Below are positions 7,543-58,561 of a stretch of DNA of 64,000 nucleotides, piece after piece (within the stretch, counting starts at the first letter, position 1; each line of letters opens with the position of its first letter). The position numbers were made by a program, and so were the translations under genes. Under the pieces are notes generated by a model. It was not told the DNA's origin and made no database searches. It saw nothing but the letters and a program-made list of their open reading frames with translations. Origin of the DNA: Aphrocallistes beatrix (Eukaryota > Porifera > Hexactinellida > Sceptrulophora > Aphrocallistidae); the NCBI GenBank assembly GCA_963281255.1, contig OY725490.1:1488001-1552000 (forward strand). The letters are read 5' to 3'.

Positions 7543-10500
7543 TCATGACTCCTCGACTTCTATAAGTAAGAATTTCTTTCGAAAAAAGTAATAGCCAATA
7601 CCAGCCACAACCACAATGACCACAATAATTATAACAGAAATAGAACTCAACACAGTCAGCTGACTTGCTCCATTTTCTTTGGATGTAACTAAAAATATAT
7701 GTCATGAAACCTAGTGCCATTCTATAAAATACGTATTACTAGAACCTTAATTTTTTAAATCTTCAAAATAAATGTAAGGTTGAAATACTTGAGTCAAATA
7801 GATTGGACTCTATTAATAATAAGATACAAACAGGATATTCAGGTGAACTAACCAATTATTCAGTGTTCGTATGCATATTTGTGATTTTTTCAAAAAAATT
7901 TGAAAATACTATGATATTCCGTACAAGCGCGTTTTTCACATTTGCGTGTTTCGGCTGCGCGAAATCATTAATCCCACCATAGACGATGCAACTTTGTTGC
8001 ATGCAACAAGTTGCTTGCAACAATTTTCGTGGAGCATAGTTGCATGCAATATTGTTGCCTGAATTTTGTGCTTATTTAATAATTTTGATTCTATATACCT
8101 ATTTGTGGAATCTTTTGTTTAAATTGAACTAATTACATCAAATTTATTCTGCATTTTTACATAATGGTAAAAAACGTATCGTCGTACCTGTCATTGCCCT
8201 CGCCCTTTTGAGAAAGCAATCTATTTTAATGGCTTGATCGTATTTTTGATAATGCTTATCGTTATCGTTATCGTTATCGTAATAATTAATATAATTTTGA
8301 TGCAGAATGTTGCATGAAAATAGAACATGTTCTATTTCCATGCAACAGGTTGCATGCAATACTCGACATACACGATGCAACTTTGTTTCATGCAACATTT
8401 GTTGCATGCAAAATACTACCATACACGATGCAACATTGTTGCATGAAATTTTAACATACACGATGCAACATTGTTGGCTTGTTGCATACAACAAAGTTGC
8501 ATCGTGTATGGTGGGCTTTAGGCGCTACTGAAACGAAATATGTTTTCACATTCAGTAAAACATTTCCTATATTTCCTATAAAAACATGAAATTTGGCATC
8601 AATGTTCTTAATTGTTTTTTTTTTCAATCCAATAATTTAACCACTTGAAAAATTTGCCTTCCTGCGAAAAAATCGGTTTTATATTCATATTATTATAATT
8701 AAACTCAAAAAGATCGGTCTTCATATATCCGGCTGAGGTTTAATGTCCAGATCGTGCAGTGCTGCCAAGTGAGTTCAGAAAAATTCCTGGAGATTGACCA
8801 TAAAATTTACGGAGAAACAAATTTTTTTACGGAGCATTCTAAAATGACCCAACAGGTCTTAATTTACTTTTACAAATAACATAAACTAACAACTTTGTAT
8901 GAATTATCATAAATAAAGATAGATATATGGACGCTTTCGCAAACTATCAAAGCACTATTTAATATGGTCGTACATACTTTGTGAAAGAATTAAGCCCAAA
9001 TCCATTTTAAAAGATTGGATGATGTCAAATTTGTCAACTGACTATATCTCGCGATCTAACATAACTTGAAGAGTATTATTAATGTGATATAATCAGAATG
9101 ATAATATGGTTCACTAATAATAACAAAACACGCAGTTAGATGTTCTAAACAAGAAGTATTAAATGTATTACGCAAGAAATACGTATAAATCGGGTCTTCA
9201 TACGTAGACACGTAGATTGCAGTCAAATGTACGTAGTCTACGTAAATTTACGGAGACTTGGCAGCACTGAGATCGTGCAATATGGAAGTTTCTTTAACCT
9301 GATCAGTTAAAAAGGATACTTAAAAGTCATTTTTTGACAGTAATTTACATTCAACGATAAATACTCTAGTCTCATACTTGAGTTAAAGAAACATTCCATT
9401 GCTGTTCCATCGAATGACTGTCCACACTGCTGTACTATCGTCAAGTTAGCTGTAATGTTAGTCTCTACTCCATCTAGCTGAGTGAAGTTGTGAGCAGTTA
9501 GAACTGTATTGTAACTGAGTTGAGAAGATGGTAGAGTGAAGCTAGTATTGTCAGTGTATGTGTGTGTTACACCTTGTCTACTGTGAGAGTAGAGGAGTTG
9601 GAGAGAATACGAAATGTCTAATCCTGATACTCCTGATGGCTGTGTAGGTACACTCAATCCCTAAAAGAAATTCCTTGTATATAAAATAAACAAGCGCGCT
9701 TCGCTTGCTTGCGGTGCACGGCTGGCGGACACTTGGTCAACCAAGGGGTTCGGATAACTGAAGTTTGGATAGCTGACGTTCTACTGTGTTTTGAACTGTT
9801 TGAAGTATGCTTTTAAGCGTTATCCATAGAGCCTGTAGAAGGTTGAGAACTCCTGTATTTGTGTATATAATGCCATGAATGAGTATATACGTAAAGTCCA
9901 AAACTCAACTAACCAATAAAATGTGAGGTCTCCAGTGACTGTGTCATACTCAAAACACGAGAACTGAGAAGAACACTTCACTACTATTAGTGAGTAACCT
10001 AAATTAATAGAAATATTATTATATATAAGGGATACTATTCCGGGATTAATTACAACTTATACGACTTGTAATATTCAGTGCTAAATCGGTTCTAATTAGC
10101 GAATGAAGTTATTAAATATAGATAGAAGAATTACGTGAAGAGAGATCAGAATTTAAATGAACAAGAAAACTGAAAACTGAAAATAAGTCCTAATTGTATG
10201 TAGTATACAGGGTGACAATTAAGTTCTGTTACAAGCTTCATTAGGTATAAAATTTCTTACACTCAAAAGATCTTAGTTATTATGGTCCTTAGAGATTGTA
10301 ATTCGAATATTTTCAATGATTTTAAAAGATTTTTCGATTCTAAGACTTAGAAATGTGTTTTGTATGGCGAGTTTTGAGAAAAAAATGTGTCCTGGCACGG
10401 AGCGAAATCGTGAATCAGGGCCCACTGCTTTTCAAGTTATCTTCCCAGAGTCTTCAAATTATGGGAAAAATTAGCTCACACATTTTCCTCGAACACTCTA

Positions 10501-12315
10501 AATTTGTAGAGATATAAGATGTTCAGATCAGTGCATTTTGAGGACCAATTGGATCAGATTTTTTTGTGATGTGAAAAAAAGTGCAATTTTGGGGAATTTT
10601 GCAAAATGTACCTAATTTGAACTGCGAATGAATAACTTTTTCTCGTTTCTGATAATCAATTCAGTGGATTTATAAAATATTTATATGCAGAATGAAAGGT
10701 ATCTGGTGCTAAATCGTCATGGAACATCGATTATGAAGACATTCTTACAGAAGCAGTGGGCCCTGATTCGCGATTTTCGCAGCGTGCCAGGACACATTTT
10801 TTTTTCTCAAAAGTCAACATACAAAACACATTTCATAGAATCGAAAAATCTTTTAAAATCATTGAAAATATTCGAATTACAATCTCTAAGGACCATAATA
10901 ACTAAGATCGTTTGAGTATAAGAAATTTTATACCTAATGAAGCTTGTAACAGAACTTAATAGTCACCCTGTATGTCCAGAATGATTCTATTAGACTCACT
11001 TGCGATAGAAACATCAATAGAGCTGGTAGTAGAGTTACCAGCACAGCTCATAGCTGTTACAGAGTACTGATAGTCAGTATTGATATTCAGAATAGTGGAG
11101 TGAATGTAACTGGTAGAATTAGTAGTAGCTAGTGGAGATCCATTAAGATGCAGGAAATACCTATCAACAGTTTTGTTGCTAGGAGGAGTATTCCATGCCA
11201 GAATTACGATAGCTGAGCAAGTAGCTGTGTTGAAGTTAGAAACAGAGCTCTGTAGACTGGGAGCAGAAGGAGGAGCTAGGGAATGTATCATTAAATTCAA
11301 TAGTTTTAATACTTCGCTCTTTAAATGACATTTCCACCCTGAAACCTTGATTGTTATTAGAGATTATTCAATTGAAAGAAAATTGGGAACAATACATCCT
11401 GCTCATCAATTGTAGTTTATTTGTAAGTAAACAACAACATTTATGATACTTTAGATGATGAAATAACCAAGGATGTTATAATTGTGAAGATTTTACTCGG
11501 CACCGTTCATTCGTCTATTTAAAAACAATTTTTGTTTTGCTAGCAGTTGAAAGCAAGTCTCTAGCTAAGTTGACTAATTCATGAATTAACCCTACTTGGA
11601 CTTGGGGTCAAAGGTATAAATAGAAAATTCCCACTTTCATTTTCACTTTCAGTTCACTTTCAATTAACTTTCACTTTCACTTCAACATTCCAAGTCCAAT
11701 TAGGGTTAATGAATAATTCGAATAATTCATAATTCATCAAGCCTGAGAAGAATTATTCAAAATTGAAAGTTTTTGCAACAAAATATCATGATTATATGAA
11801 TGATTTTTCGAATAATTCATATTTCCTGAATTATTAATAATTCCTAATTCAGGAATTATGAATTATTCGAATTATTTATTAATTCATGAATTTGTCAACT
11901 TAGCTTATGATTGACTAATTCATGCTTGAATTATGAATTATTCGAATAATTCATAATTCTTTGCCATTTTTTAATGAATTAGTCAACTTAGGTCTCTAGT
12001 ATGCTTTCAAAATATGTTTGTTTTATGTATCAATTGTAAAACAACATTTATCATAGTCTCGAAAATATAATATTCGGATTCTAAAAACCAAGGAAATACT
12101 TTGTTCACCCAATTCATTTGATATAATTTAATTTAGGTTTATTCCAACTTTAATTATAAGTGTGTTTCGTTGAGTTTGCCTAATATTAATATTCTATTTT
12201 TAGAACTCTTGGGTATCAATCCCGTATTATAAGATCATAGTCGTAGTATACCTTGACATGAATAACAACTGAAGAGAGATAATATCAGGAAGATATGCAA
12301 TAATAGCCCATTCAT
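7543..12315 (-). CDS. P1: signal peptide-FN3-FN3-TM receptor, short tail (probable frameshift)
   Basis: A small cell-surface receptor in the array. Exons (minus strand, 5' to 3'): 12315-12252 signal peptide (MNGLLLHIFLMLSLFSCYS, donor after CAAG); 11275-11000 FN3 with core Trp and the ...YSVTAMSCAGNS strand; 9998-9914 and 9660-9378 second FN3-like sandwich; 7688-7543 TM exon with a hydrophobic run (VIIIVVIVVVAGIGYYF) and a short basic tail ending IEVEES. It has no Ig exon between signal peptide and FN3, although the phases still join. Summed exons give 854 nt, one short of a multiple of three. The exon ending at 9914 ends TATTG|GTTAG, where every sister copy ends TGG at a phase-0 donor, so one G is missing. 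Either the gene is broken here or splicing is non-canonical. The tail has no tyrosine motifs. A donor-like CAG|GTAAGT follows the stop, so an alternative 3' exon is possible. Introns hold several MITEs. Confidence 0.55.
7973..8515. mobile_element. MITE rich in TTGCATGCAA palindromes, in an intron of P1
   Basis: Ends CCCACCATAGACGATGCAAC and, inverted, GTTGCATCGTGTATGGTGGG. The interior repeats CGATGCAAC(A/T)TTGTTGCATG several times on both strands, plus a short (GTTATC)n run near 8255-8280. Its ORFs (8144-8494, 8307-8531) are by-products of the repeats. Confidence 0.75.
8757..9269. mobile_element. hAT-type MITE with 8-bp target duplication, in an intron of P1
   Basis: Terminal inverted repeats CAGTGCTGCCAAGT and CTTGGCAGCACTG. 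The flanks are the same 8 bases, AGATCGTG, at 8749-8756 and 9270-9277. An 8-bp duplication and CAGTG...CACTG ends are diagnostic of the hAT superfamily. Non-coding, 513 bp. Confidence 0.85.
9690..9745 (-). repeat. GC-rich Helitron-like 3' end fragment
   Basis: Contains ACAAGCGCGCTTCGCTTGC followed by a G/C-rich stretch. It is the reverse complement of the terminus seen at 43030-43056, 44320-44385, 49080-49151 and 56490-56540. The end can fold as CAAGCG-loop-CGCTTG. Here only the end is recognisable. Confidence 0.5.
10208..10970. mobile_element. long-arm foldback MITE (CAGGGTGAC ends) in an intron of P1
   Basis: TA-flanked (10206-10207 and 10971-10972), 763 bp. The arms of about 225 bp are near-perfect inverted repeats, from CAGGGTGACAATTAAGTTCT inward past AGGGCCCACTGCTT near 10425 and 10755. 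The ORF at 10685-10915 is simply the right arm. Confidence 0.85.
11570..11995. repeat. AATTCATGAATT/GAATAATTC palindromic repeat in intron 1 of P1
   Basis: Bounded by CTAAGTTGACTAATTCATG and its inverse ATGAATTAGTCAACTTAG. It contains repeated GAATTATTCGAATAATTCAT palindromes and a C/T-rich CTTTCA(A)CTTTCA tract near 11630-11690. It resembles the element at 365-1376 in style but not in sequence. Confidence 0.6.
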
Positions 12316-13066: not shown

Positions 13067-16000
13067 TCATTTCAAGTTAGCATAGAAAGGAGGTTGAGTG
13101 CTATCTTGTTTGTGTACAGAACTCATAGGAACATAATCCTGAGGAGATTGTTGTTGAGTAGGAGAGCTGATGTTACCACTCAACTCATCTAGATCTATGT
13201 ACTCGTAAGGATGAGATGGAGCTGGTTTAACAGTTAATGCTGAGTTTAACTGTTTCATCTTTCTAGCCATGAAGATAATGACTAATATCAATATTGCAAT
13301 GATAATGACAGCAATCAGGGTTAAGAGTCCGAATAGAACAGTTAGAGGTAGCACTCCTATAAAACAGAGATTGAATACATCAGTTGAGACAGTACAGAGT
13401 ATAGCTAGCTAGCTGCATAGAAAAGCATCTAAAAGGAATCACGTTATCTTCGTTACATCCACTGAATATAGTATTAGACTTGATTAGATTTACCAGTATC
13501 AAAGCAGCTATTCGCGGTGATAATAGTGGTACAGCTAGAAGTAGGAGTTGTCGTTGCCGCTAAAAGAAAACTGGGTGATAAATTAATTATCTACAAATAC
13601 ACAGGTCTAAGAATTATAAACAAAATCAAAATAGACAAGGCGTTGGTTAAAAAGAATTGAAGCTAAATATATCAACATATTCGAACATAAAATGATGTAT
13701 GTGGTATCTCACATGAACGAACAGAGGAGAGAGTAGAACTTGATGCGTTGGGGGTAGAGGTAGGAATAGAGATAGGGAGAGGTGAATCTAGAAAAGATAT
13801 CATAATAATGGCAGCATTTCAGTTCTAATTTGAAAGCAGTGGCGTAGACAAGATTTTACTCGTGGTGGTGTGGTATCACTTTGAGTTGGTGCATATAGAA
13901 TTAAATGAGAGAGATTAGCAAACCTCTCAACTCTCAATTCTCGTCGCGTCACACAATAAGATTAAAATTAGAAAGGTATTATTAGTATTTATAATTGCTA
14001 GAAATCATTGTCTCCTAATAATAGTTCAGCAATTAAAACGGAAAATCTTAAATAAATGGTAGCCCAATTTCATTGAAACTGTTGATACCTGATCTAAGAC
14101 TACAGCTAAGTTCTGTTCCAACCAAATCCTGTCCACACTGCTGTAGTATTCGTAGATGAGCTGTTATGTTAGTCTCTACTCCCTGAGGATTAGTGAAGTT
14201 GTGAGGAGTTAGAATTGTATTGAAACTGAGCAGAGAAGACAGTTGAGTGAAGTTGGTAGAGTTAGAGAATGAGTATGTCACTCCTTCTCTGCTGTGAGTG
14301 TACATTAATCGGAGAGAATATGTTATGTCCAGTCCTGATACCCCAGTGGGTTGTGAAGGCATATCTAGTTCCTACAAGGATTGTTAGATACAATTTATGG
14401 GGGGCCTGATACAACCACAAGTTAGCTAAATAAGATAGTTCGTTATACAAATACTTGGTGACATAATTATATTCATTTTGTTATATCCTGATATTGCTTA
14501 TAAAGCCTCGCATTTAATATCGTTCAACATTGCTAAAGTCAGAGGTTTTTACGAATATAATTAGCTATTACAATTTAATAAGAGTCGTACTTCTACGTTC
14601 TCAGAGACGTGCACAACTGTATTTGCAACAAAGTGATGTGTCCTTTAATGAAGTGTCCATATAAAAATAGAAATCCGAACAATGTACTCGGTAAAATAGA
14701 AACTGCATTTATTATCACATGCAGCTTAATTATGTGTTTAAATGACCTAAATGAATAAATTGCAAACAAAAATCTTAGAATCGTATAATCCAGTTCACAT
14801 CGCCCATATCTTAGAATAAATCCAATTTTGTTTGTTGAAATAATGATTGGACAAACTGTACAAATACAAGTTAGCTAAATAAGATAGTTTTACGTGTTTT
14901 AAAATGACGATAAATAATACAAAACACCGTACATACAAGTCTATTCAACTAACCCAGTTAACAGTGAGCACAGCAGTATTATTGTCATAAGAGAGACACT
15001 GAGGTAGAGGATTATTCACAGTGAATGAGTAACCTAAATAAATCCAAACAGAATTCATTCATTCAAATAAATAAACTATCTGTAAACTTGATTCAAATTT
15101 AACTCAAGTTACTCTTTCATTATCTTGTAAGAAAGGCGTATTTACTTGTAGAATGTGTTCCTGTGACCTTAAAACATAGCTTTGATCTGGATTTGTACAT
15201 GAAATGTGGGAACAGAGAGTTGTGGTATAAACTCACTAGGATATCAGAAATACGAGAACTCTACTATAACTCGAAACTCACTTGCGACAGAGTTAACATT
15301 AGTAGAGCTGTTAGTAGAGTTTCCAGCACAGTTCATAGCTGTTACAGAGTACTGATAGTCAGTGTTGATATTCAGAATAGTGGAGTGAATGTAACTGTTA
15401 GAATTAGTCGTAAATAGTGGAGATCCATCAAGATACAGGAAATACCTATCTACAGTTCTGTTGCTAGGAGGAGTATTCCATGATAGAGATATGTCAGCTG
15501 AGCAAGTAGCTGTGTTGAAGTTAGATACAGAACTCTGTAGACTGGGAACAGAAGGAGGAGCTAGGAAAATTATATAAAAATGTTAGTCGACACATGATTT
15601 TATTGACTAATACGGATTATAGCTAACTAATGGATTAAATAAATCACAATTTTGACTACTCAAACTTAAATCTGATTTGTTGACATGGATAAAATTATTT
15701 GCAACGCAAAATAGTTGCATATTACACAATTAAATTAATCAAACGAATTCTCAATATTACTACATACATAATATATTTCAATCCCTCAATTGATATACTA
15801 ATACTCCGCTATGAAAAATTGATAAATTCATTATGTGACCAGCTGATTGATGTATATGTATAATTTCTTACATTATTTTGAGAAAACTTGGATTGGAACG
15901 AAGTCTCATTGACGAAAACGTCGTCCGTTATTAGTGTGTTTTCTATTCTAAGTATTATATAGGATATATCTATGATCCTATAGTTGGTGCCAAACCCTAA

Positions 16001-16702
16001 AATGCACATTCTAATGTTCGCCACTAGCAGACACTCTATAATAGAAAGATACCATTTTAAGAATCCGGAGTGGGAACACCCATTTATGAACCGCTTTATT
16101 CTTTGCTTGTTAACAAAACTCTGTTCCTCCTCAAAAATTAAAATTTAGAAAATTCGACGTAAAATGCTAACGAGAACTAACCTGCTTGCATCAGTACAAC
16201 TGTTTCAATCAAAGACATCACATTGCCTACATTCCCTCCCACAGCATATCGAACAGTACATCCTATGCGAAGACCGTCATTAGCGTTGGTGAAGCTGAGT
16301 AGTGTGATGGATCCAGTTATGAAAGTAGAAGTGCCGAGAGTTCCACTAACAGTCACTTGAGACAAATCGAATCCATCGTGGATTCCGTTACCTTGAGCGT
16401 CTGTAAACGAAACAGGAGTATCTGTATCTCCAATTATGAAACTGATTACAGTTTCTATAAACACATCACCAGCAGGAACATCTGGTGGAATCAGTGCACA
16501 CTCAATAGTGATGCGATCTCCTACACAGGGAGATGTGGATGGATTCTGTAGCACTGTACCTGGAAAATATGAAAGTAAGAGTCAAGTCACTAAGATATTT
16601 ATTTTCCAAAAATTGCTTACCATAAGCAAGGTTAACATTTGTGCTTAGAATTATGATTTGAAAGAAATTGAATACAGAGACTCGATAGGAACTTGAAGTC
16701 AT
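13067..16702 (-). CDS. P2: Ig-FN3-FN3-stalk-TM receptor with tyrosine-motif tail (intact, 510 aa)
   Basis: Exons 5' to 3': 16702-16621 signal peptide (Met-Thr-Ser-Ser..., core NFFQIIILSTNVNLAYG); 16559-16182 Ig-like domain (126 codons, F-strand motif NDGLRIGC); 15560-15282 FN3 (core Trp in ISLSWNTPP, G-strand region YSVTAMNCAGNS); 15033-14954 plus 14371-14089 second FN3-like sandwich split by a phase-0 intron; 13787-13713 and 13559-13494 Ser/Thr/Pro stalk; 13356-13067 TM and cytoplasmic tail to stop. Lengths sum to 1533 nt with no stop. The tail carries YEYIDLDE, DYVPMSS and FYANLK: YxxI/L, YxxM (class IA PI3K p85 SH2 consensus) and YxN (Grb2 SH2 consensus). I read it as a type I plasma-membrane receptor that signals through tyrosine phosphorylation; the ligand is unknown. 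The Ig and SP exons are the most divergent among the copies. Confidence 0.8.
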
Positions 16703-16775
16703 TGATCAATGCTTGGACTGATTATTTCCTCTTAATATTTCTCACTTAGCTAATCTAGGTTTAAAACAGTAAATT

Positions 16776-16875
16776 ATCATCTCATCTATATCTATGTACT
16801 CGTAGACAAAAGGATTGGGTTACAATAAGTAGAATAATAAAGATAATAAGGAGAATAGCCGTGAGGATGTGTTAA
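16776..16875 (-). pseudogene. relic TM/tail exon of a lost ninth receptor copy
   Basis: On the minus strand a TM-like run (LTAILLIIFIILLIV) at about 16868-16820 is followed, after a frame change, by codons for YEYIDIDEM at about 16805-16779, the hallmark of the P2-type tail. No exon neighbours remain, and the rest of the tail is absent. Confidence 0.6.
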
Positions 16876-17682: not shown

Positions 17683-20600
17683 CTAAAAGAAGTATTTATG
17701 AGAAAAAAGCTTCTTTTTACAAATGAAAATGAAGATCATGATCAACAAAATGACAACGAAGAGTAAGATCAGCACGAACATGAAGATACTAATAAGTATA
17801 ATCGTAGTGGCAGAAGAAGAAAGTCCAGCTGCAGGTCCTAGAAAAAAATGTTTGAAATAACACAACAAAATTATATACAGCAAAGTATTACGTATGACAA
17901 TTCTAAAAATAATATTTATAAACAGGTATATTTCAAGTCAGAAATAGTTTTATTTTAAGCCAGGGATTCCAGATCTGGCAAAAAAAGTGTTTTTGTTTAC
18001 ATGCAACGATTTGTGAATTGTGGTCTAAAAAATGTTTTCACTAAAAATGTTGACATTTTTTGTGAAAACATTTTTTAGAATTTGGACCCAGGTTCAAATA
18101 TCCACCATATAAGGAATATATGGTGCAATCTGATCTAATAGAATCTCCAGGAGCGAGTAGAAGGACCCACTTACCTACGGACCAAAGTCTCACGCCTCAT
18201 GACTTAAGGTATATCCTATCCTAGGAGCTGCACTATAAAACCTGAGTTTTAATATATAAGATAAGAGCAAATCTAAAATAAGATTTATTGAACATTCATA
18301 CCTGTCACAGGACAGCAGAAAGGAACCTCAAAGTTTGGCATTTTAATTCCATTGAAATATATCTGTAGGAATATCTCTTCTTCACATACAATCTTTTCAA
18401 TAATATTAAAATTATAGATGAAGGGAGACACTACGATGATGTTAGTTATACTCATCGAAAAGGTGGGATCATTTCGTTTAATCAACACAGCTGAGAGTAG
18501 ACCATCAAACTGAGTTTCATAGTCTTCATTGGAACAAGGTATATTATTTATGATATATTTCGTAATATTAAGTGTTACTGGGCCTGACACCTATTCAAGG
18601 AATAAACACTGATCATTAGTCACGTTTTCTAAATCTAGAGGAAGACAATTAAATTAATATGGACCATCTTATTTTAAGCTTTGAATAGTACCTCACAATA
18701 TCTACCTACAAAAATGAATAGTTGAGTGAGCATTTGGCTAATAACACTAATAATTAAAAATTAATTAAGACTCGACCAAGTTGGTGATGCAGAATCGAGA
18801 ATTAATATCTCGTATTACAAGCTGTCCTGTATTACCCAACTAATCCTGAGTCCTAGCTCAAGACCCTGCTATGTATTAACCAACAGTTTACGCCTAGCTA
18901 AATTAAGAAAAAAATTACATACAAAAAATATGTACTATGGTTTATCTTGATCACCAAATATTCACTATAAGCAATTTGGAGATGATTTAGTGGTCGGCTC
19001 CCCTCGTGCAGATCTATAATGGGATATGTCCGGTTTGGGGCTTAAATTGCAAAAGACATACTTCTGATATTCAAAGAAACTAGTAACTGATATTTGGGGG
19101 TGGCTTTATATCAGCTAATACTACATTTTAATGATCTAAAATCTACCGTTTCGGAGGTATTGGTGAAAAAAGTTGGGACCATTAATAATTACAAGTGCGT
19201 ATGGAGGCAAATCTTTCACCAATATCTCCGAACCGATAGATTTTAGCCTATTAGAATGTATTATTATGTTTGGTGATAAAGGTAAACTATTTGAAGAGTG
19301 TGTATTTAAAGATTCAAACTTTCGATCTTTTTTGAAGACCCTATGGAGTATACATGATTTAACTTACTGTATAGAATATATTTTCTAGATGTCGTTGGAG
19401 AACTCTCAATTGAACATGTCTTCACAGTTGTTTCAGTGAAGTAGCAAGTGTCAAGAGAAAAATCACCATTAAACATTTCAGAAAAATCTTGGATGGTATC
19501 TACAACCTGGTTGTTAGAGTTGAGATCGCTTTTAATCAGTTTAATTGTGTATTGGAAAGCTTGAGAGATTCTAATTGTACGGATGTTTGGAGTTATTTTC
19601 AAGGTGTCTAGCACCATTATTGGTGTAGGAGGTGGAGGACTAGGAGAAGCTAGAGTGTATAGAGTTAAATTATGAGGAAGAAAAATATTATACTGAATTA
19701 GTATACATATACTATCAATATTACACCATAGTGCAACCAGAGGGAACTAGGAGGACCAGAGTTCAATGTTATACCCAAGGAAAATGCATTAAATAGGTAA
19801 ATAGTGATATAATCAAGGATGTATAAAAATCCAAAGTTTAGACCTATGTCCCACATCAAAATAGAATTACAAGTATCTATCCAGTTGATGAAAGTGAAAT
19901 TACCTGGAATAAAGAAGATCGTTTCATCAGACGTGTTTCCTGCACAGTTAGTAGCTGTTATAGAGTAGATGTATGGAGTATTCAGTTGTAGAGAAGTGCT
20001 GTAAGAATATGAACTGAGAGGAGGAATGACAGTATCAATCATTGTACCATTCAGATACAAGAAGTACTGATCTACAGTTAGAGGACTGTTGATTGGTTGA
20101 TTAGGATGAGTCCAGGTTAAGGTAACAGTCGTAGTACAAGCAACTGAGTTAAAGTTAGTGATAGAGTGTTCCAGAATAATTTGATATATCGATAAATCAA
20201 CTAAAATTAAAATTCAGTAACATTCATGTCAAGTCTGAAGAAATCCTTATTGTGTTATTTTATATGCCAACTCATTAGAACTAATACCTAGGGAGTCATT
20301 ATGATTATTTATATGCATTGAGTTATATCTAACCCCTATTGGTTAATAATATCTAACCAACTGTAATTTTAATCCTTTATTCTGATTTGTTAATAGATTT
20401 TGACACCTTTGGTAAAAATTTGTAGAATTTGCAACCAGTTCAAATCTTCCTGAGTGTGTCAATAGAGAGAATGTTAAATATGCAAAATCTCTGAATGTCA
20501 TGTATTTATGTCATATATCATATATAACATGAAAATTAATGTCTCGCACTTCAGTATTGAATGTTAAATACATTTGTTTAGGGTCACTGAAATCACGTTT

Positions 20601-21493
20601 GGAGAATTCTGACAATTGTCTCATTCTTCTGGCACAGAATGTAGAAATGTCACTTCTTTCAAAAAACAACGATCTTCATGTAATAAACAAACATACCAGC
20701 TTGTACAAGTTCAAGTGCTTGTACGAGTTGGATAGGACTACCTGCTCCACCAGCTCTATAATCACTAGCACATCCCATGCGTAGACCTTCATCGGTGTTG
20801 TCGATGTAAGAGAGGAGAGTGATTGATCCTGAAACCTCTGTAATATTTCCAGCATTGGAAGTAGCCGTGAATCGAGAAAGATCAACACCGTTAATAGTAG
20901 TGGTTCCATCGACATTACTTTCTGTTAATGTTAGATTAGTTGGTCCAATAATGAAGTTAGGTCTTGAGGAATCGAAAAACATCTCCAGTTCCCGCATCAG
21001 GTACGGTCAGTACACAGCTGACAGTGATGCTCTCTCCTGAACACGCGAAGGATGGACTCTGTGTCACTGTACCTGGAAAATTAAACTCAAGAAATCTAAC
21101 TGAATTCCATAAATGCCAGATTAATGTAATAACATCACCTCTAAAAATCTAAATAATAAAGAAAGGTTGAGTTTGTTTCAACTAAATGTTAATAACCACT
21201 TTCATTAATTCTATTTGGAGCTTCAAGACAAATTTTTCTATCCAAAAATATTTATTCCCATTCACTTATTATCTAAAACAGAAAATTATGCTATTAGATC
21301 CCCAAATCAGCGTTCAGCAAATTTGGAATATCATATATCCTAGTTAAATCATTGAATTGGAATGATCAGTGAATAAATTATAATGTAGAACTGTTACAAG
21401 TTAATTAAACAGCTGAACTAGGTAGTTCTTACCATCTAGATAACTAAGTTGAGTGAAGAGGAGAAGTATCTGAAAGAAACTGGAAAAATACAT
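17683..21493 (-). pseudogene. P3: short-tail Ig-FN3 receptor, sister of P8, with two disabling lesions
   Basis: Exons 5' to 3': 21493-21433 signal peptide (MYFSSFFQILLLFTQLSYLD); 21072-20697 Ig-like; 20200-19904 FN3 (Trp in TLTWTHP, end SITATNCAGNTSDET); 19649-19368 a Pro-rich start then an unrecognised 94-codon module; 18634-18302 an unrecognised 111-codon module with a Cys pair near its end (PFCCPV); 17837-17683 TM exon with a long hydrophobic run and a short lysine-rich tail (CKKKLFSHKYFF). Two breaks are visible. The Ig exon is 376 nt against 375 in P4, P7 and P8, because of an extra base in the A-run at 20975-20979, which brings a stop soon after. Codon 18593-18591 is TAG where P8 has TGG. 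The total of 1504 nt is one over a multiple of three. All splice borders are still canonical, so the decay looks recent. Confidence 0.75.
19137..19245. repeat. short inverted repeat in an intron of P3
   Basis: CTAAAATCTACCG...GGAGGTATTGGTGAAA is mirrored by TTTCACCAATATCTCC...CGATAGATTTTAG, with about 40 bp between. A foldback of about 109 bp, non-coding. Confidence 0.6.
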
Positions 21494-31243: not shown

Positions 31244-31517
31244 CGAAACGTAGAGTTGCTAGTTCTAAAGTAATAATATGTTATTAACAGACACATGTGA
31301 TGGAGGTAGAGTGGTCCTAGCATACATGGCAAATGTCTCGTTTTTACAATGAAATTTCATACTATGTCTCGCTTTTTCTATTCTATGTATGTATAAGAAC
31401 TTTCCATTGCGTCCCGCCATATCCACAAAATTCAACGCTAGGGTCGAGAGGTGCTGTACTTTCCTACACTTGAAAGAGCGCATCTCCAAGTCATTTTTAA
31501 CAACACGCCCGATGGAT

Positions 31518-31799
31518 CTAACTTTGAGTTCTTTGACATTTTTCTAATTGATCGGCGGGGATTTCGGCGAATTCGTTCACGTAATACTTTTTTTTAAGCC
31601 GCTGAGCCATTGCATAGCGTGGACAGCCAGATCTAAGTTTATCAATAATCCTGCCAGTCGCTTCATATCGCTCAATAGTACGATAAATGAACTTCCTTCT
31701 ACTGTTAGGGAATTTTAGGAATTCTGAAGGAATTTGTCCCGATTGAAATAATTCGATTATTTTAGACCTCTCCAGTTCCCTGACAAAAAGTCTCTTCAA
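31518..31799 (-). pseudogene. Tc1/mariner transposase N-terminal helix-turn-helix remnant
   Basis: A 93-codon open frame begins MKRLFVRELERSKIIELFQ and continues with a second helix-turn-helix (FIYRTIERYEATGRI) and an arginine/glycine-rich linker (KLRSGCPRYA). This matches the paired HTH region of Tc1/mariner/IS630 transposases. The DDE catalytic part is absent. A short piece (GTGAACGAATTCGCCGAA) recurs inverted at about 32790, so the element is broken up. Confidence 0.65.
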
Positions 31800-46090: not shown

Positions 46091-49000
46091 TCACTGCTTT
46101 ACATCAGTGTACTTAGTTTTACGAATGATAATGAAGATCACGATCAATAGCACGACAACGAGGAGTAAGATCAGCAAGAAGATTAGGATACAAATAAGGA
46201 TAATTGTAGTAGGCGGTGTAGGTACTATAAAGAAAGATAAAATTATGTTTGAACTAACAACAATATTATAGACAGGCATATTCATTCCTTCATACGCCTA
46301 ATTATGATCCATGGGATCAAATACGCGCCTCTAGGCACGCCCAGTACGCCTGGATGAAAGCCTGATAGAGATAGTATCCAGCTGTATGCATCTCTAAAGT
46401 CCAAATACCCTCTATATGCCATAATTTAATTCGCTCTTAATTAAAATAACTTATCCCCATACTCTAGGGGTCCGAATAAACGGCCCCCGCTTATTTATTA
46501 ATTTGTGGATAAATACACCCAGGGGACAAAAGTATTCGAACACTGAATTCAATGAATTACCTATGAATTACCTATGGTGGCTCAGGCTGATGAGATTGTT
46601 CATTGAGTTCAGTAACTTATTACAAAGTAGATAAGTTCAACTATGACTAATTCGAATATGAGGATTTCGAATCTGAAATCAGACTTTTAGTATCTCCGAG
46701 AATTTGAACGTATTTCCCTTCATGAAAAGATCCAATTTAGTACTATTTGTATGAGAATCAAGTGTTGAAATACTTTGTCCGGTTGGTGTATATTAGAACT
46801 CTAATTATTTGTTTGGGAAATATTGTAGTGTACGAATACTTTTGGTAGGGCAGTATATGCATTGCATCAAATATCTTCTATCTAAATTCTATAGAATAGT
46901 ATTTTATTCTTATTCTAGATGATCTAATACGTATTACTATGTAATAGATCAATGAATTTCAATTCAACACTTCTAGAGTAAGCAGTCGATTGATTTTATC
47001 CCTAATGAGCAACCTCACAAAGTGTTGATTTCAGATGTATTTAAAATGTCAGTCGACAGTACCATAATCGTAGATGTTGGGGGCTGGTAGGAGGGGTGCT
47101 TCTCCCCCCAGGCTTGGAGCTTGGGATTACCTGAAAAATCACTAAATTCTTTATTTTAAAGTTGAATTGCATGTCGAAGGCTATTCTACATTCTCTAGCG
47201 TTTATCACTACTCTCCAAGTATGGTTGTTGCTTATTATCGAAATCAAGACAATCTAGATATATTTTTACTCGTTAAACTCTCAAATTTGATTAGTTTTCA
47301 AAAATTTACGCCCATCCGATAGTGCAGCTCTGGTAAGTTAAAGGTTAAATGTGAATATTGTAATTCATGGAGAGACAATCATTTTAGAGCTTTTTACCTA
47401 CATACTACCTACCCAATATAAGAGCTAATTTAAAAATAAGTTATTTTAACATTCATACCTGGCACAGGACAACAAAAAGGAACTTCAAAGTTTGAAATTT
47501 TATTTCCATTGAAATACATCTGCAGGGATATCTCTTCTTCACATACAATCTTTTCAACCAAATTAAAGTTATAGCTGAAGGGAGATGTCAGGGTGATGTT
47601 AGTTATATTCATCGAAAAATTGGGATCATTGCGTTTACTTAACACAGCTGAGAGTAAACCATCTGCCAAGAACTGAGTGTCATAGGCTTCATTGGAAGAC
47701 GAAATATTACTCATGACATAGTCTGAAACATTAAGCGGTACTGAGCCTGATGCCCATTCAGAGGATAAACACGTATCAATAATAATGTTTTCCAAATCTA
47801 GAGTAATTAAATCAATTAAAATGAAATTCCTCAGTTAATAAGCTTGGAATATTAAATGAGAACATCCACACATAATTGGATAGTTGAGTGCTAGTTGGTT
47901 TACTAAAACTAATTTTATATATTAAAACGCAATGTTTTGTTTTTATTTGTCCAGAATTGATTGAGGAACTGGGAGGTGCTAGAAATGTGAAATTTGGCGC
48001 ACAGGTAAATAATAATGAGTCTACGATTAAGTTCGAATATCAAAGCGAAATCTTCACACCTCGTCGAGATAAGTGACAAATTGTGCTGACCAATCAAATT
48101 CATTTCTTTTATAATGCAAATACATTGGGATCAAACAGTAGTGACTTATGCATACAATCAAAAGGACTATTTGTGATTGAAATTCATTGACTCATACGAG
48201 AACCAATCAATTATCAGACTTTATAATGCGATTCACACGATTCTATTTCATATAAAAATATTTTCAGGCCTATATGATAAATTATTTGTTTACAATAGAT
48301 ACATAAAGTAAACAAATTTCAAAAATATGCTAGAAACTGGATTTCAACAGTTGACATGGGGTTTTCAGGAGTGGAGATTTTGAATATCATATTTTCGAGT
48401 AAATTTGATAATTAATTTGTTTACTTTTGTTTACAATAGATACATAAAGTAAACAAATTACATAAGTAGGCTAGAGGCTGGCTTCCAATGGTTGAAATGG
48501 GGTTTTCAGGGGTGTAGATTTACCCATATGAGAAATTTTTGTTTACAATATTTATACACTGCCTGAACAAAAGTATTCGTACACCCCATAATTCCCCATA
48601 CAAATAGTTATAATACTGATTTATTTAGCGTTTCAAGAATATTTAATTTGTGAGAGATACACTTAATTTGACTTTAAATTCGAATTCTCCACATTCAAAT
48701 TACACACTTTATGTTTTCAACTTAATTACTCTTCTTCAAGATTAAGTATTTTCAGCATTTGCTTTCCTATGCCACATGTCGCGAGTGATCGCCATTGTAT
48801 ATGATGGCATTGGTGGTATGAGGTGGCACAGTTTGAAAATCTTTAACCTTGTGGGAGTGTAAACAAGTTGAAAGATTAAAAATTGAGTAATTTGAATATG
48901 GAGAATTCGAATTTGAAGTTAAATTAAGCGTATCTCTTACCAATTGAATACTTTGACTCGCTAAATAAATCAGTATTATAACTATTTGTATGGGGAATTA

Positions 49001-52000
49001 TGGGGTGTACGAATACTTTTGTTCAGGCAGTGTATAAAGTAAAAAAATCCAAAAATAAGTTAGATCGAGAAACTCCAGGCGCCCGCAGGGCGACTCTGCT
49101 GACACACAGTGTCCACAAGCCGCGGCAGCGCAAGCAAGCGAAGCGCACTTGTTATTAATTATGGCTCGACAAAAAAAAAGGCTTAGATGCATAGCTAAAT
49201 TAAGGTAAATATTTACATACGAAAAATAGTTTTCTATGCGGTGTTCGTTTTAGTCAAATAAAGGAGTATATATGATTTAACTTACTGTATAGAATATATT
49301 TCCTAGATGTCGTAGGAGAACTCTCAATTGCACATGTCTTCACAGTTGTTTCCGTGGAATAGTAAGTGTCAGGAGAAAAAATACCACTGAAGGTTTCAGA
49401 AAGATCTTGAATGGTATCTACAACCTGGTTGTTAGAGTTGAGATCGCATTTAATCAGTTTAATGGTGTATTGTAAAGCTTGAGAGATTCTAGTTGTACGG
49501 ATGTCTGGAGCTATTTTTAAAGTGTCTAGCACCATCATTGGTATAGGAGATGGCGCCTTAGGAGAAGCTAAAATGTATAAAATTAAATTATGAGAAAGAA
49601 ATAACAAACTGTTTTGGCATGTATTAAAAACGGTCCACAGTATGCACTGAACACGAGGGATGCTGGGATTGAACCCTAGGTAGCGAGAGTAACAAGAGTT
49701 TTGTTATCCCTATCTTCTACGGACATAGCTTGTATACAACTCTGCCTACTCCTGGATTTGATTTTAATAAAAAATTAGGTTTGAGCTACTCTTAAAACTC
49801 GATTCAATGAAAGATTTTAAATTTCCCTGTATATCACGATATGTAAATTACGATACGTATCTATCAAAGGATGCTAAAAGCAGGGGCAGTGCCATATTGT
49901 ATTCTCTGGGGTTGCATATGGGTCGGAATCCCTCATAATGGGGTCATGGACCCTCCGTTGTACATCAAAATTATTTTTGATATTTGATCGATTGCTATTA
50001 CACTACCTGAGAAATGAAGTTTCAATCCTTTGGAGAGACACCAATGAATTATGTCAATTAGCATATATGTAGGTGTATGCAGATTAAAAAATTCATCGAT
50101 CGTTTAAATCATTTGCTCTAGTTATGCCACTTCCGTCTGGGCTCAGAAACCTCTAAAAATCATACTTTAATCTTTTTCTAAAACAATTTGTCGACCGAAA
50201 TAATGCCATTATTTGATCTACTGTACGATGTAAATGATATTTAATATGATGGTAACTATAGATTTGTCTAAGTACAAAGGTTTTCTGAATTAGGAGCTTG
50301 ACCTTTCGATTTCCCGCAATACTCAGCAGAAATTTATCTAATTTATCCACAAAACCTTTCCTAGCATATTTTGCATATTTAAACACAATCAATTCATTAT
50401 ATCGTATAGACCAATCATGATTAATAGTTGTATATTAATTTAAAACCTTCTAATATGTTTTACTTCAAGTAATAGTAACTATTCGCATGGTGTCGGACAT
50501 GATAATTTCCCACTTTTTTTTAGAATTTGTTTAACTTCCATTATACTTATATATTATTTGGTATATATCCAGTTAATGTTGCATTTACTGTAAAACATAA
50601 TTATTTGCACGTTCATTCGTTTCTTTATTCATTATTAATTTGAAAGCCACAAGTCTTAAAAGCATGATATTTGTATATTGTTGTAATTTTTCATTGGGGT
50701 TGTTGAATAATTAGCTATATCGGAACAAAGTTCAGTCAGTAGAAAATGATTGAATTATATTCAATATGTTTGTGTATTTTGAAACTTCAATCAGTTGATA
50801 TTATATAGCTCAGCAAAATATCATTCATAATTTAATACCATGCACAAAGCTTCACATACTAATTGACCATCGAGAGGAATTCTTACTAACTGTAATAACT
50901 AAAAAGGATAATCTGATACTTTAATAATGCACCAAAGGTTATATACTTAGGGCATTCAATTAGTTCGTAACCCTTGCTTTTACTTATATTGTTTAACCAC
51001 ATTTCTCCCCTATTTGCTTCCATTTATATAGCTTATAGTATTTTTCCAAGTTACTCTTTCCTAAAGATTGGCTCTAGTAACCACAGAAGAATTTATGGCT
51101 TCTAAATCGAACGAAATTTTAATAGAGCAGAGAACCTACATCAAAAATTCACTCATTACTCAGCGATACTCCAAGGAATATCCACCAAGATTTGGTTACT
51201 GTATTACTGTATTGCGACCCTTTTCGCGCCGCCCCCGGCTAGAAAAGAAATTACCTGGAATAAAGAGGATTGTTTCATCGGATACATTTTCTGCACAGTT
51301 AGAAGCTGTTATAGAGTAGATGAAGGAAGTATTCAGTTGTAGTGAAGTACTGTAAGAATATGAACTGAGAGGAGGAATGACAGTATCAATCAATGTGCCA
51401 TTCAGATACAAGAAGTACTGTTCTACAGTTAGAGGACTGTTGATTGGTTGATTGGGATGAGTCCAGATTAAGGTCACAGTAGCATTACAAAATGTTGAGT
51501 CAAAGTTAGTGATAGAGTGTTCCAGATTAATTTGATAAAACTGCAAAGGAACTAAATGAAAAAATCAGTAAAATTAAATTCTGAAGAAGCTTGATGATAG
51601 GCTTGTATGTATAACAATTTATCTACATGTAATAACATGTAGTATCTATCTATCCTTGAGGGTCAATTTATTAAAACTATGAGAGCTACTTTAAATATTA
51701 TATTAAATTTTCACATTCGAATTGACCGATTTAAAAGATTCCTATAAAATATCTACATACATATGGGTGTTATGAAAAGTAATCTAGAAATAGTTTTTTT
51801 CGGTTCTCCAAAAAGTTACATCCGGACATTCCACAGATGTGCCCAAGTATAGTCCAGCACAGTGAATTTACTATGACGTGCCCGACTATACTCACTTGGT
51901 ATCGCGGCACATCTGTGGATGGAAACTCACAGTGGCTTAAATTGGCTGGATGATGGAAGTAGGTATTTAGGTAGAAGCAAGGCCGTCAGACATGGGACGG

Positions 52001-56704: not shown

Positions 56705-58561
56705 TAGATAGATAGATAGACCTAAATTGCTCAATGACAATTGCGATCGTCGAAAAAGGATGGCGATTGTGATCGTGAGGTCCTAATGCCCTATGTTAGC
56801 ATGTATATACGTAATATATACGTACACAAACCAATGAAACCATCTTCGCATAATAAACAAACATACCAGCTTGTACCAGTGTGAGTGTTTGAATGAGTTG
56901 GATAGGATCACCTACTCCACCAGCTCTATAATCACTACCACATCCCATGCGTAGACCTTCATCAGTGTTGTTGATGTAAGAGAGGAGAGTGATTGATCCT
57001 GAAACCTCTGTGTTACTTCCAGCATTGGTAGTAGCCGTGAATCGAGAAAAATCGATATTATTAGCGGTACTGGTTCCGTCAACAGTAGCCTCTGTTAGTG
57101 TTATATTCGTTGGTCCAATAATGAAGTTAGGTCTAATGGTATCAAACACATCTCCAGCTCCAGCATTGGGTACAGTCTGTACACAGCTGACAGTGATGCT
57201 ATTCTCTGCACACGCGAAGGGTGGACTCTGTGTCACTGTACCTGGAAGAGGAAAATATAATAATAATAATATTGCCCATGGAGAATTTGACAAATCGTCC
57301 AGAAATGTGACAACCGTCGCCCTTTATTATTCGAAATCCACCGTGAAAAATACAACAATTTTTTTAAATTCTAGAAATGTGTGCCCACTTGTCACCTGCG
57401 GCGTTGCCCCTGACGCAGGTTGACATAATAAAGGGTCTACAATATTCATGTATTATTCCGACTTATGAATAATTGGATATGTTGCTGGCATCATGATAGT
57501 GATATCATTAATCCAGGAAAACAATAGATTATACATGCTCTAGGGCTCAGAGTCAGGATGTGTTCGTGGCTCTATGTGGACATTCATTTAAACAAAAGTC
57601 CTAGTAGCTTTGGTTCTAAATTAAGCAAGGCGTAGTCTAGTACTGCTCTGGATGTCTGCCACCAAAGCTGCACACTGGCCCAGAATAACGATGATCGTTG
57701 AATACACATTTTGCACATCTAGAGTCTAGAGTCTAGACACATATGCGTATACTGTAGATTTGAGGAAGAATGATGGCTCGTGGCTTTAACCTGATCTTCA
57801 GGAGCACAAGCCGTGGGTCGGATAGGTTGATTGGCATGGATATCTCAACTAGCAGCCGTAACTAGCACATACGGAGGCGGTAGAGGAGATAATTATTACT
57901 ACCTTCAGAGACCTGATAAGTCTCTGAGATGGAACGAAACGACATCCCCTTCAGGCTCCCTTGGATGGGAAAGTGCCCGATGATATTTTATATGGTTATA
58001 TGACACATATATAGTATTTTATTTGGGTCGGAATTATTAACCAATAGAAAGCGATTGATATCTAACAATTGAATGGCGGATACTTCGTCCACTGGCCATT
58101 TCGTCGCATGGATCAAACACATCAGTAATAATTTGAGTGCGAGTTCATTCATTGACTTATCTATTCATAGATCTGCTTAACACTATACCATCAGATAAAA
58201 TAATTGGCACTTCGTTTTGAAGATACAATATTGCCCTAAAAAGCTCCAAATAATTAGTCGAGATTTCCTTTATTCCTCGCTTAAATGCCCCATTGTCCCC
58301 TCGCATTTCCTCTTTGCTGAAATGGTATGCGGTGTAAAAGTTTGAGAACCACTGATTTATATTTTTTGGATTCTAGGGTTTTCAATACCGCCGAAAACAA
58401 TAAAGAGATATTTCGAGACCAGTAGTATATAAAATATTTTTTTTTAAAAATTAATTTCAATACACAAAAAAGCATTTACCTTCAACTGAATAACAAGAAT
58501 CAAGCAACAACAATGATAGAAGTTGAAATATAACGAGAGACTGTAATGATCCCACTAACAT
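46091..58561 (-). CDS. P8: Ig-FN3 receptor with two unrecognised modules, TM and short tail (intact, 502 aa)
   Basis: Exons 5' to 3': 58561-58480 signal peptide (MLVGSLQSLVIFQLLSLLLL); 57241-56867 Ig-like, nearly identical to P7; 51551-51255 FN3 (Trp in VTLIWTHPNQP); 49567-49286, a Pro-rich start then a 94-codon module with KLIKCDLNSNNQVVDTIQD; 47797-47459, a 113-codon module (DTCLSSEW...VCEEEISLQMYFNG...PFCCPVPG); 46224-46091 TM (about 25 hydrophobic residues) and tail RKTKYTDVKQ. All borders are GT...AG at phase 1 and the sum is 1509 nt without stops. The short tail has one tyrosine and none of the YxxM/YxN motifs of P2/P6/P7, so it may need a partner chain, act as a ligand or act as a decoy. 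The TM has no clear central charged residue in what I read. The gene spans 12.5 kb because its introns filled with transposons; its sister P3 spans 3.8 kb. Confidence 0.75.
47915..49151. mobile_element. Helitron-like element in an intron of P8, with nested MITE 48557-49032
   Basis: The left end TATATATTAAAACGCAATG and the following block match the element at 41603; the right end is GCGCAAGCAAGCGAAGCGCACTTGT. The nested TA-flanked MITE (CACTGCCTGAACAAAAG ends) sits where the sister element has one, so the composite moved or was duplicated as a unit. Confidence 0.6.
49600..51060. other. long intron of P8, no gene seen
   Basis: AT-rich with no splice-bounded coding blocks. A tRNA-like B-box (GGTTCAATCCC on the minus strand, near 49670) is present without a full cloverleaf. 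Short ORFs (50153-50392, 51068-51319) have no domain signature. Confidence 0.4.
52286..53079. mobile_element. hAT element with 8-bp duplication CTGTATAC and transposase remnant
   Basis: Ends CAGGGTTGG and CCAACCCTG, flanked by CTGTATAC at 52278-52285 and 53080-53087. On the minus strand at about 52680-52580 a frame reads SRINASIERIFSNFSLVQNK, then a stop, then NRLDLENQQNW, the C-terminal dimerisation region of hAT transposases (SxER.FS...RNRL). The subterminal regions are rich in AACCCGGGTT palindromes. The element is dead. Confidence 0.85.
53650..54187. mobile_element. Tc1-like element with decayed transposase N-terminus
   Basis: TA-flanked, ends CAGTGCCGGTCA and TGACCGGCACTG. Within, broken frames on the plus strand read ...GRPLSQPKGK... 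and ...VHRRLRGAG..., matching the linker and second HTH of Tc1 transposases. The catalytic domain is deleted. 538 bp. Confidence 0.75.
54251..54325. repeat. perfect 33-bp hairpin with 9-nt loop
   Basis: The arm at 54251-54283 is the exact reverse complement of 54293-54325, with loop CATAGGGTT. The arm includes AATGCGACGGGATTGGTTGC. A foldback transcript would make a perfect 33-bp duplex. It is in an intron of P8, on the transcribed side of that gene. No larger transposon ends are obvious around it. Confidence 0.85.
55046..55362. repeat. foldback repeat with GACAAATG motifs
   Basis: GCATTTGTCC...AAGTTGTCATTTGTCCGAATTGC at the left is mirrored by GCAATTCGGACAAATGACAACTT...GGACAAATGC at the right, with additional direct CGGACAAATGACA copies between. 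MITE-like. Confidence 0.65.
55500..55595 (-). repeat. inverted copy of the GC-rich Helitron-like 3' end
   Basis: ACAAGCGCGCTTCGCTTGC..., then GGCCTGCGGGCGCGTGGGGTC. It is the reverse complement of the termini at 44320-44395 and 56490-56540. Confidence 0.6.
55665..55815. repeat. (TATC)n microsatellite, degenerate to ATATCT
   Basis: About twenty TATC units followed by TATATCTTATA repeats. The Tyr/Ile/Ser-rich ORFs across it (55465-55818, 55644-55826) are artefacts. Confidence 0.95.
55810..56541. mobile_element. Helitron-like element between two microsatellites in an intron of P8
   Basis: The left end TATATATTAAAACTCTAGG plus the shared block (GAATTGATTGAAGAATTGGC); the right end CGCAGCGCAAGCAAGCGAAG then CGCGCTTGT. 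About 730 bp, with no nested insertion, so it is the cleanest copy of this family in the window. Confidence 0.65.
56545..56722. repeat. (ATATCT)n and (TAGA)n microsatellite
   Basis: Directly follows the Helitron-like 3' end; roughly complementary to the microsatellite at its other end (TATC versus GATA). Confidence 0.95.
57430..58470. other. first intron of P8, no gene seen
   Basis: Bases about 57560-57990 are less AT-rich than their surroundings and resemble old transposon sequence, but I find no reading frame or tRNA-type promoter that I can support. Confidence 0.4.

Follow-up and report, generated by a model that had tools for sequence, protein, structure and literature searches.

The window (the whole stretch of Aphrocallistes beatrix DNA that was analysed, 64,000 nt; C3:1488001-1552000 in a genome of 100.5 Mb and 28 contigs) carries eight tandem genes on the minus strand, from 58561 to 7546. 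The original prediction of this array proved real: the genes have modules in common, and in several of them splice sites stand at matching places. Neither tRNA genes nor Rfam families at gathering score were found in the window. The features are as follows (positions of the window; coordinates with a contig prefix refer to the genome).

56719..60945, no strand: left arm of a 4.2-kb inverted repeat with the gene 1 front end (99.98% to C3:1557787-1562012)
58480..58561, minus: gene 1 signal-peptide exon (MLVGSLQSLVIFQLL..), identical copy at C3:1560171
56867..57241, minus: gene 1 Ig exon, protein 98% identical to gene 2 Ig
51255..51551, minus: gene 1 FN3 exon, gene-6 type
49286..49567, minus: gene 1 membrane-proximal module, gene-6 type
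47459..47797, minus: gene 1 third module (D3), common to gene 6
46094..46224 (start approximate), minus: gene 1 transmembrane (TM) exon, no tyrosine motif; a candidate donor precedes the stop
41419..41482, minus: gene 2 signal-peptide exon
40767..41141, minus: gene 2 Ig exon, predicted V-set
39946..40227, minus: gene 2 FN3 exon
39466..39533, minus: gene 2 X1 exon, phase 1-0
38984..39266, minus: gene 2 X2 exon, phase 0-1
38295..38570, minus: gene 2 Ser/Thr-rich stalk, two exons (38502-38570 and 38295-38363)
37878..38185, minus: gene 2 TM and tyrosine-tail exon, stop included
35694..36071, minus: gene 3 Ig exon (32% identity with gene 2 Ig; backbone near-identical)
35307..35588, minus: gene 3 FN3 exon
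34068..34350, minus: gene 3 X2 exon
32992..33296, minus: gene 3 TM and tyrosine-tail exon
29877..31289, minus: partial copy of an LRR-EGF gene on C9, interrupted in frame by a stop at 30332-30334; unlikely to belong to a receptor
29210..29490 (3' end approximate), minus: gene 4 FN3 exon; no Ig exon found
28007..28289, minus: gene 4 X2 exon
27021..27319, minus: gene 4 TM and tyrosine-tail exon
25623..25997, minus: gene 5 Ig exon
25047..25328, minus: gene 5 FN3 exon
24189..24471, minus: gene 5 X2 exon
23266..23569, minus: gene 5 TM and tyrosine-tail exon, its frame broken in an A-run near 23450
20697..21073 (ends approximate), minus: gene 6 Ig exon, frame break at a T-run near 20980
19904..20200, minus: gene 6 FN3 exon
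19368..19649, minus: gene 6 membrane-proximal module
18302..18590 (start approximate), minus: gene 6 D3 module, no in-phase acceptor found
17686..17837, minus: gene 6 TM exon without tyrosine motif
16730..16870 (limits approximate), minus: frame-broken relic of a TM and tyrosine-tail exon (VYEYIDIDEM) behind gene 6
16621..16702, minus: gene 7 candidate signal-peptide exon
16182..16559, minus: gene 7 Ig exon
15280..15560 (3' end approximate), minus: gene 7 FN3 exon
14089..14371, minus: gene 7 X2 exon
13067..13356, minus: gene 7 TM and tyrosine-tail exon
12252..12315, minus: gene 8 signal-peptide exon, one residue off the gene 2 signal peptide
10998..11275 (3' end approximate), minus: gene 8 FN3 exon; upstream Ig exon not found
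9378..9660, minus: gene 8 X2 exon
7546..7690, minus: gene 8 TM exon, short tail; second genome copy not found

Gene anatomy and the extent of the complex

Gene 2 consists of a signal peptide, an Ig exon, an FN3 exon, X1 and X2 (together the membrane-proximal module), two Ser/Thr-rich exons and a single exon for TM and tail. Exon phases were assigned by the analyst, and donors and acceptors were then looked for by script. The splice sites are consistent with symmetrical phase 1-1 exons, except X1 (1-0) and X2 (0-1); for X1 and the stalk exons this check covered gene 2. In genes 3, 5 and 7 the Ig, FN3, X2 and TM exons are all present, and their splice sites correspond in position. For two FN3 exons, in genes 4 and 7, the script found no donor in phase, and for D3 of gene 6 it found no acceptor.

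Ig and FN3 modules had been predicted to be shared by all eight genes. FN3 and the membrane-proximal module are indeed present in 8/8, but an Ig exon was found in six only (genes 1, 2, 3, 5, 6 and 7); in genes 4 and 8, FN3 and X2 are present and an Ig exon was not detected. A second backbone, common to genes 1 and 6, differs in its FN3 and X types and in its TM exon and has a third module. Among the sequences scanned, the Pfam FN3 model scored above cut-off in gene 7 and in a protein of the glass sponge Oopsacas minuta (P0001, see below) and below it in gene 6; the Ig exons of gene 3 and gene 7 and the protein of gene 2 gave no Pfam match that passed its cut-off.

The Ig exon of gene 6 and the TM exon of gene 5 have one homopolymer frame break each, and these breaks may be assembly errors. 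Upstream of gene 4 lies a 1.4-kb copy, 95% identical, of part of an LRR-EGF gene on contig C9. This copy is unlikely to be the gene 4 ectodomain, because its protein is 96% identical to that of the C9 gene and is interrupted by an in-frame stop. A second LRR-EGF frame (C3:1609263-1610489) is uninterrupted and is located 1.1 kb before a tyrosine-tail exon.

Searches of the own genome with Ig, FN3, membrane-proximal and tail exons placed 303 of 322 matches in C3:517-1832 kb. Within C3 516.8-1831.9 kb we found 74 of the 82 Ig matches, 120 of 127 for FN3, 78 of 80 for X2 and 31 of 33 for the tail, split hits being counted twice in the genome counts; after merging of split hits C3 retained 73 Ig matches and 76 X2 units. 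At least 21/76 X2 units have a class-1 tyrosine tail (defined below) at most 5 kb away, and divergent tails were found besides. The confinement to C3 holds for these exon families and not for FN3 domains as such: the best 150 matches of the Pfam FN3 model are all on other contigs. The eight genes of the window are a slice of an antibody-domain-like surface receptor complex. What had been described as a cluster of eight genes thus stands as a tandem receptor complex, but its extent is ~1.3 Mb rather than 51 kb.

Mosaic histories of the exons

Comparison of genes 2 and 3 by DNA bins gave an identity of 36-49% across the Ig exon and its flanks and 93-99% across FN3 and the start of the following intron; the other introns and the stalk were at 43-65%, X2 at 71-99% and the tail at 86-92%. 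Synonymous divergence (dS) between the two genes was 1.14 in Ig, 0.07 in FN3, 0.04 in X2 and 0.13 in the tail, and between genes 4 and 7 it was 0.11 in FN3 and 0.62 in X2. We extended the comparison to 18 genes (153 pairs). FN3 dS was below 0.35 in 47 pairs; Ig dS was larger in 47/47 of these and at least 0.6 in 35. The Ig data reject the FN3 tree (AU p=2.9e-5) and the FN3 data reject the Ig tree (AU p=1.6e-8; 18 genes, GTR+G in both tests). The histories of the Ig and FN3 exons differ within genes. In the class-1 tail exon, dS averaged 0.89 over the TM segment and 0.13 over the tail.

The 18 genes come from 34 recovered Ig exons; the other 16 were left out for being short or for lacking an FN3 exon within 2 kb in the DNA retrieved, and they include those of gene 1 (FN3 5.3 kb off) and gene 6 (broken Ig). 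The count of 0 reverse cases among the 18 therefore excludes gene 1, itself a reverse case with a 98% gene 2 Ig on another backbone.

Read from these divergences, the stalk and tail are homogenised and the Ig exons old, divergent and swapped. Since the pattern is seen in silent sites and in part of an intron, exon exchange or gene conversion is needed and selection alone is insufficient. That positive selection alone caused the Ig divergence is unsupported, as synonymous sites differ equally strongly between exons of the same genes. The dN/dS ratio of Ig exons is mostly <1; among the listed close Ig pairs (dS <0.5) it exceeds 1 in 10, seven of which involve one exon (C3:1649254; uncorrected), and for one identical pair it is undefined.

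A recent rearrangement, the 4.2-kb inverted repeat, has placed a second copy of the gene 1 front end at C3:1557.8-1562.0 kb. Behind this copy the first exons found are of gene-2 type; a 200-N gap separates them from it, so the junction is uncertain.

The Ig domain and the tails

The original prediction had suggested modelling the Ig-like exon, and a V-set-like fold is predicted for it; the distal domain would be a V-set Ig domain, the model having the Ig sandwich with a B-F disulphide. One of five structure models was confident (84.7), the remaining ones scoring 62.6 to 39.5. Foldseek gave no match at E <= 0.001 (best E 2e-3). When 16 members of the Ig family were scanned against Pfam up to E 10, with HMMER filters that discard most matches above E 0.1, seven families were matched and no Ig-superfamily model was among them; two of the seven are bacterial Ig models, matched by one member each (best E 0.05). 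A PDB profile search with the Ig family had antibody light chains as its best match (E 0.21); the gene 2 Ig exon alone had no relative among PDB sequences, the best match (E 0.18) being an unrelated enzyme. The FG region is the most variable part of the domain, and concentration of variation in CDR-like loops was not significant (p=0.10). A full-length model of the Oopsacas protein P0003 was discarded (pLDDT 35).

Tyrosine-motif tails had been predicted in five genes and were found in 5/8: the TM exons of genes 2, 3, 4, 5 and 7 end in PYEYI..YVPM..YANLK-stop. This window type, with YEYID, YVPM and YANLK-stop, is our class 1. Class 2 tails, on an exon of their own at C3:1605, 1622, 1639 and 1648 kb, add YYSEM and YYTPM, and class 3 tails (near C3:1315, 1330 and 937 kb) have 11-13 tyrosines in repeats. 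YxxM occurs in 18 and YxN in 18 of the 19 tails counted, which include one Oopsacas tail; class 2 and 3 tails had passed a tyrosine-motif filter, so motif frequencies there partly reflect selection. Not counted among the 19 were L077 (which overlaps L075), a 53-residue fragment in L020 and the class-1 tails L010, L016 and L017, each of which has YVPM and YANLK. Among 14 class-1 tails recovered by similarity, the four tyrosines occur in 14, 14, 13 and 14. The tail of Oopsacas P0003 ends in YIDMD, YTPM and YGNLK.

YxxM recruits PI3K p85 and YxN recruits Grb2; the motifs seen here are presumably of this PI3K/Grb2 type. A p85-like gene is located at C2:797 kb. Its SH2 region matches p85alpha best (5.8e-30); its inter-SH2 region scored 28.8 bits, below the Pfam cut-off of 31.5, with a profile that also gave a sub-cut-off match in 1/14 control genomes. 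The original prediction drew a comparison with receptors whose tails have opposite signalling ability; paired signalling of the ITIM/ITAM type is ruled out for the tails read, with 0 ITAM and 2 ITIM matches among the 19. Receptor tyrosine kinases are ruled out for class-1 tail genes because the tails finish at a common, conserved stop after YANLK. No kinase match lies in C3:517-1832 kb among the matches listed (143/413 candidates scored).

Three genes had been described as short-tailed forms alternating with signalling ones. From gene 1 to gene 8 the tails run none, Y, Y, Y, Y, none, Y, none, so that the two kinds do not alternate, and the tail-less forms are putative. Genes 1 and 6 have homologous TM exons, each with a candidate donor, GTAAAA in phase 1, just past the TM segment and before the stop. 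In genome searches the TM exon of gene 6 and that of gene 8 each matched itself alone; the gene 6-type search also missed the homologous exon of gene 1, so its silence on further copies is weak. Behind genes 1 and 8 a pattern search found no exon with the searched tyrosine motifs, and behind gene 6 there is the frame-broken tail relic. The near-identical Ig domains of genes 1 and 2 on different backbones suggest a paired-receptor-like arrangement in which the 3' end of gene 1 is a candidate. The claim of paired receptors keeps this much and loses ITIM/ITAM opposition and alternation.

Possible function and known systems

The full-length gene 2 protein, compared with 5.8 billion proteins, had one relative, Oopsacas minuta P0001 (E 1.3e-51; best 7998 candidates). 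The front end of P0001 retrieved P0001, P0002 and P0003, all from Oopsacas, and a search with the membrane segment and tail of P0003 returned P0003 alone; source names are 'Chitin-binding protein' for P0002 and 'Chitin binding protein' for P0003. No Alr or other cnidarian relative appeared in these searches, which reach only relatives with exact words in common (best 7998 candidates for gene 2). The nearest proteins found are those of a glass sponge, in agreement with the early-animal origin proposed initially. A uniform set of single-copy orthologues is seemingly not what exists, with 73 merged Ig matches on C3 versus three Oopsacas proteins in a search of limited sensitivity.

We consider it likely, with a probability of about 60%, that the locus is a ~1.3-Mb multigene complex of single-pass receptors, immune-type or for self-recognition, diversified by exon exchange. 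The predicted receptor has a signal peptide, one variable V-set-like Ig domain, an FN3 stalk, a Ser/Thr-rich spacer, a TM segment and often a YxxM/YxN tail. Modules, extent, tail motifs and mosaic exon histories can be read from the DNA itself; immune-type recognition, of microbes or of self/non-self tissue, would be the likeliest use. A self/non-self or immune receptor complex, as first proposed, is consistent with the clustering and the predicted V-set variable Ig; opposite tails of ITIM/ITAM type are not supported.

On binding a ligand or like receptors of an adjacent cell, the receptors would cluster, a Src-type kinase would phosphorylate the clustered tails, and PI3K p85 and Grb2-type adaptors would dock on them, giving an activating or co-stimulatory signal. 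Gene conversion and exon exchange would keep stalk and tail alike, and Ig exons would diverge and move between backbones, including those with no recognised tail. Several results count against this explanation: the Pfam scans without an Ig match, the best Foldseek E of 2e-3, the single confident model out of five, the p value of 0.10 for loop variation, the Ig dN/dS mostly below 1, the broken copies, the 21/76 X2 units (a lower bound) with a nearby class-1 tail, and the sub-cut-off inter-SH2 match of the p85 candidate, whose profile behaved likewise in one control genome.

Ig-FN3 ectodomains are common among adhesion proteins, and clustered protocadherins offer a comparison. Receptors for adhesion or sorting of the sponge's own cells, with a genomic logic like that of protocadherins and no immune role, would fit the ectodomain and are nonetheless unlikely, the apparent lineage-specific expansion, broken copies and swapped Ig exons being unlike a conserved adhesion code. 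It is more improbable still that the locus holds mostly decaying duplicates, exon copies piling up in a repeat-rich region with few genes expressed. The frame breaks in genes 5 and 6, the tail relic, the interrupted LRR-EGF copy and the units lacking Ig or tail would accord with decay; 81/82 listed Ig matches are free of internal stops (frame shifts uncounted), splice sites and tail tyrosines are conserved, and the tail grammar is common to Oopsacas, all of which argues against it.

The receptors could possibly serve innate immunity, recognising microbes or symbionts and diversifying via paralogy rather than allelic matching. This possibility draws on the many paralogues, on the apparent lineage-specific expansion (the 73 merged C3 Ig matches and three Oopsacas proteins above) and on a tail type that is activating elsewhere (its sign is general knowledge), but the receptors that were scanned showed no domain known to bind microbes. 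Somewhat more doubtful is an allorecognition complex in which the Ig domain would bind matching or differing alleles of neighbouring sponges, leading to fusion or rejection, as in Hydractinia Alr. Clustered mosaic Ig-superfamily receptors with a single variable, distal V-set-like domain speak for allorecognition, and sponges tell self from non-self by a response thought to be based on a polymorphic genetic system (relevant passages of PMC5450542). The ITIM/ITAM signalling of the Hydractinia and Botryllus candidates (as outlined in PMC12065747) is unmatched here, and a large number of paralogues could equally serve pathogen recognition.

Returning to the multigene receptor complex, a tentative fuller form of it would be a sponge self/non-self complex: a V-set array with germline-mixed Ig cassettes, homogenised stalks and PI3K/Grb2-docking tails, some Ig domains sitting on both signalling and non-signalling backbones. 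If true, such an array would amount to allorecognition or immunity built on receptors without ITIM/ITAM switches. The molecules of sponge self/non-self recognition are unsettled. Sponge aggregation factors are Calx-beta/Wreath domain proteins. In an Amphimedon graft study, genes of adhesion mediated by aggregation factors were not significantly enriched (passages of PMC5450542). No title or abstract opening among the papers listed by searches of open-licence PMC mentions such a receptor family, nor does the term-matched text of the Oopsacas (PMC10280926) and Aphrocallistes (PMC10282587) genome papers describe it; in that text the latter paper relates another tandem cluster, with AIG1 domains, to immune gene expansions. 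A demosponge genome paper describes, in the relevant passages, SRCR combined with FN3 and Ig domains (PMC4772301). The mapped complex provides named loci for typing grafted or fused glass sponges, and it bears on whether clustered V-set receptors with tyrosine tails are of sponge age or arose repeatedly. It bears as well on how far into sponges the ITIM/ITAM convergence in allorecognition, proposed from cnidarians to mammals (relevant passages of PMC12065747), may reach.

Among known systems, the three Oopsacas proteins have the same Ig domain (36-42% identity to gene 2 Ig in the alignment) and FN3 domains; P0001 and P0003 also have the membrane-proximal module, and P0003 the same tail grammar. 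They differ in that three proteins only were found, P0001 and P0003 having more FN3 repeats, P0001 ending in a hydrophobic stretch with no tail and the deposited sequence of P0002 having no TM segment. Vertebrate paired receptors of LILR/KIR type carry the same Ig domain on different backbones, and the 98% identical Ig of genes 1 and 2 on two backbones resembles this; unlike them, the sponge tails read have no ITAM and almost no ITIM, and the tail-less partner is a candidate. Tails of CD28/DAP10 type bear YxxM and YxN docking motifs, as ours do, but sponge classes 2 and 3 carry more motifs per tail, and the likeness seen is one of motifs. Hydractinia Alr is a family of at least 41 loci with clustered Ig-superfamily single-pass receptors (as summarised in PMC11067881 and PMC11999971). 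The C3 complex, likewise a genomic cluster of many Ig-superfamily receptor genes, resembles it as a set of clustered single-pass receptors of an early animal, whereas the sponge receptors have one Ig on FN3 and YxxM/YxN tails. The ITIM/ITAM-type motifs reported for Hydractinia and Botryllus candidate allorecognition receptors (passages of PMC12065747) contrast with the scarcity of such motifs in the 19 tails. The FcoR genes of Botryllus (fester co-receptors), according to the same passages, form a large cluster, and their products have an Ig domain of variable type and tails with tyrosines; in these three respects the sponge complex is like FcoR, which combines sushi and C2 Ig domains with ITIM/hemITAM, where the sponge receptors combine FN3 with YxxM/YxN.

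Possibly duplicated or allelic receptor exons

Searches of the sponge's own genome with receptor exons returned Ig and FN3 matches with the same scores and in opposite orientation on two contigs, at C4:2023629-2033023 and C3:1686732-1696126 (C3 being the contig that holds the window). Either the sequence was duplicated recently or the assembly would contain it twice by artefact. An Ig exon on the small contig C21 (stretch L043, 15.8 kb) is close to the exon at C3:1218318 (dN 0.09, dS 0.08); C21 is perhaps an alternative haplotype and, if so, gives a hint of allelic variation.

A 200-N assembly gap lies within the receptor complex at C3:1565543-1565742 (stretch L036), close to the 99.98% inverted repeat. 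Repeated or possibly mobile sequence in the window includes the following features, the two ORFs being putatively Tc1/mariner transposase-like:

61315-61749, + strand, ORF
31518-31820, − strand, ORF
924-1400, tandem repeat, period 138 bp, three copies with 90-100% identity to the reference copy

LRR-EGF frames and tyrosine-repeat tails

A long LRR-EGF gene on another contig (within C9:4147001-4154000, L068) has its 5′ part copied, at 95% identity, at window positions 29877-31289; on C9 the gene is a single open frame, and the window copy is interrupted by an in-frame stop. An uninterrupted LRR-EGF frame of 409 aa (C3:1609263-1610489, + strand; L069/L012) is followed shortly by an exon for the class-1 tyrosine tail, the type found in the window, and here an LRR ectodomain is possibly joined to such a tail.

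Tails near 1315 and 1330 kb of C3 (L074 and L075) are made up of YYxxM-like repeats in tandem and carry 12 and 13 tyrosines, respectively. As predicted from sequence, docking valence differs among paralogues.

Naming of the Oopsacas relatives

Of the related proteins of the glass sponge Oopsacas minuta, P0002 bears the source label ‘Chitin-binding protein’ and P0003 the label ‘Chitin binding protein’. These names are probably wrong, because both proteins have Ig and FN3 domains, and P0003 has a TM segment with a tyrosine tail.
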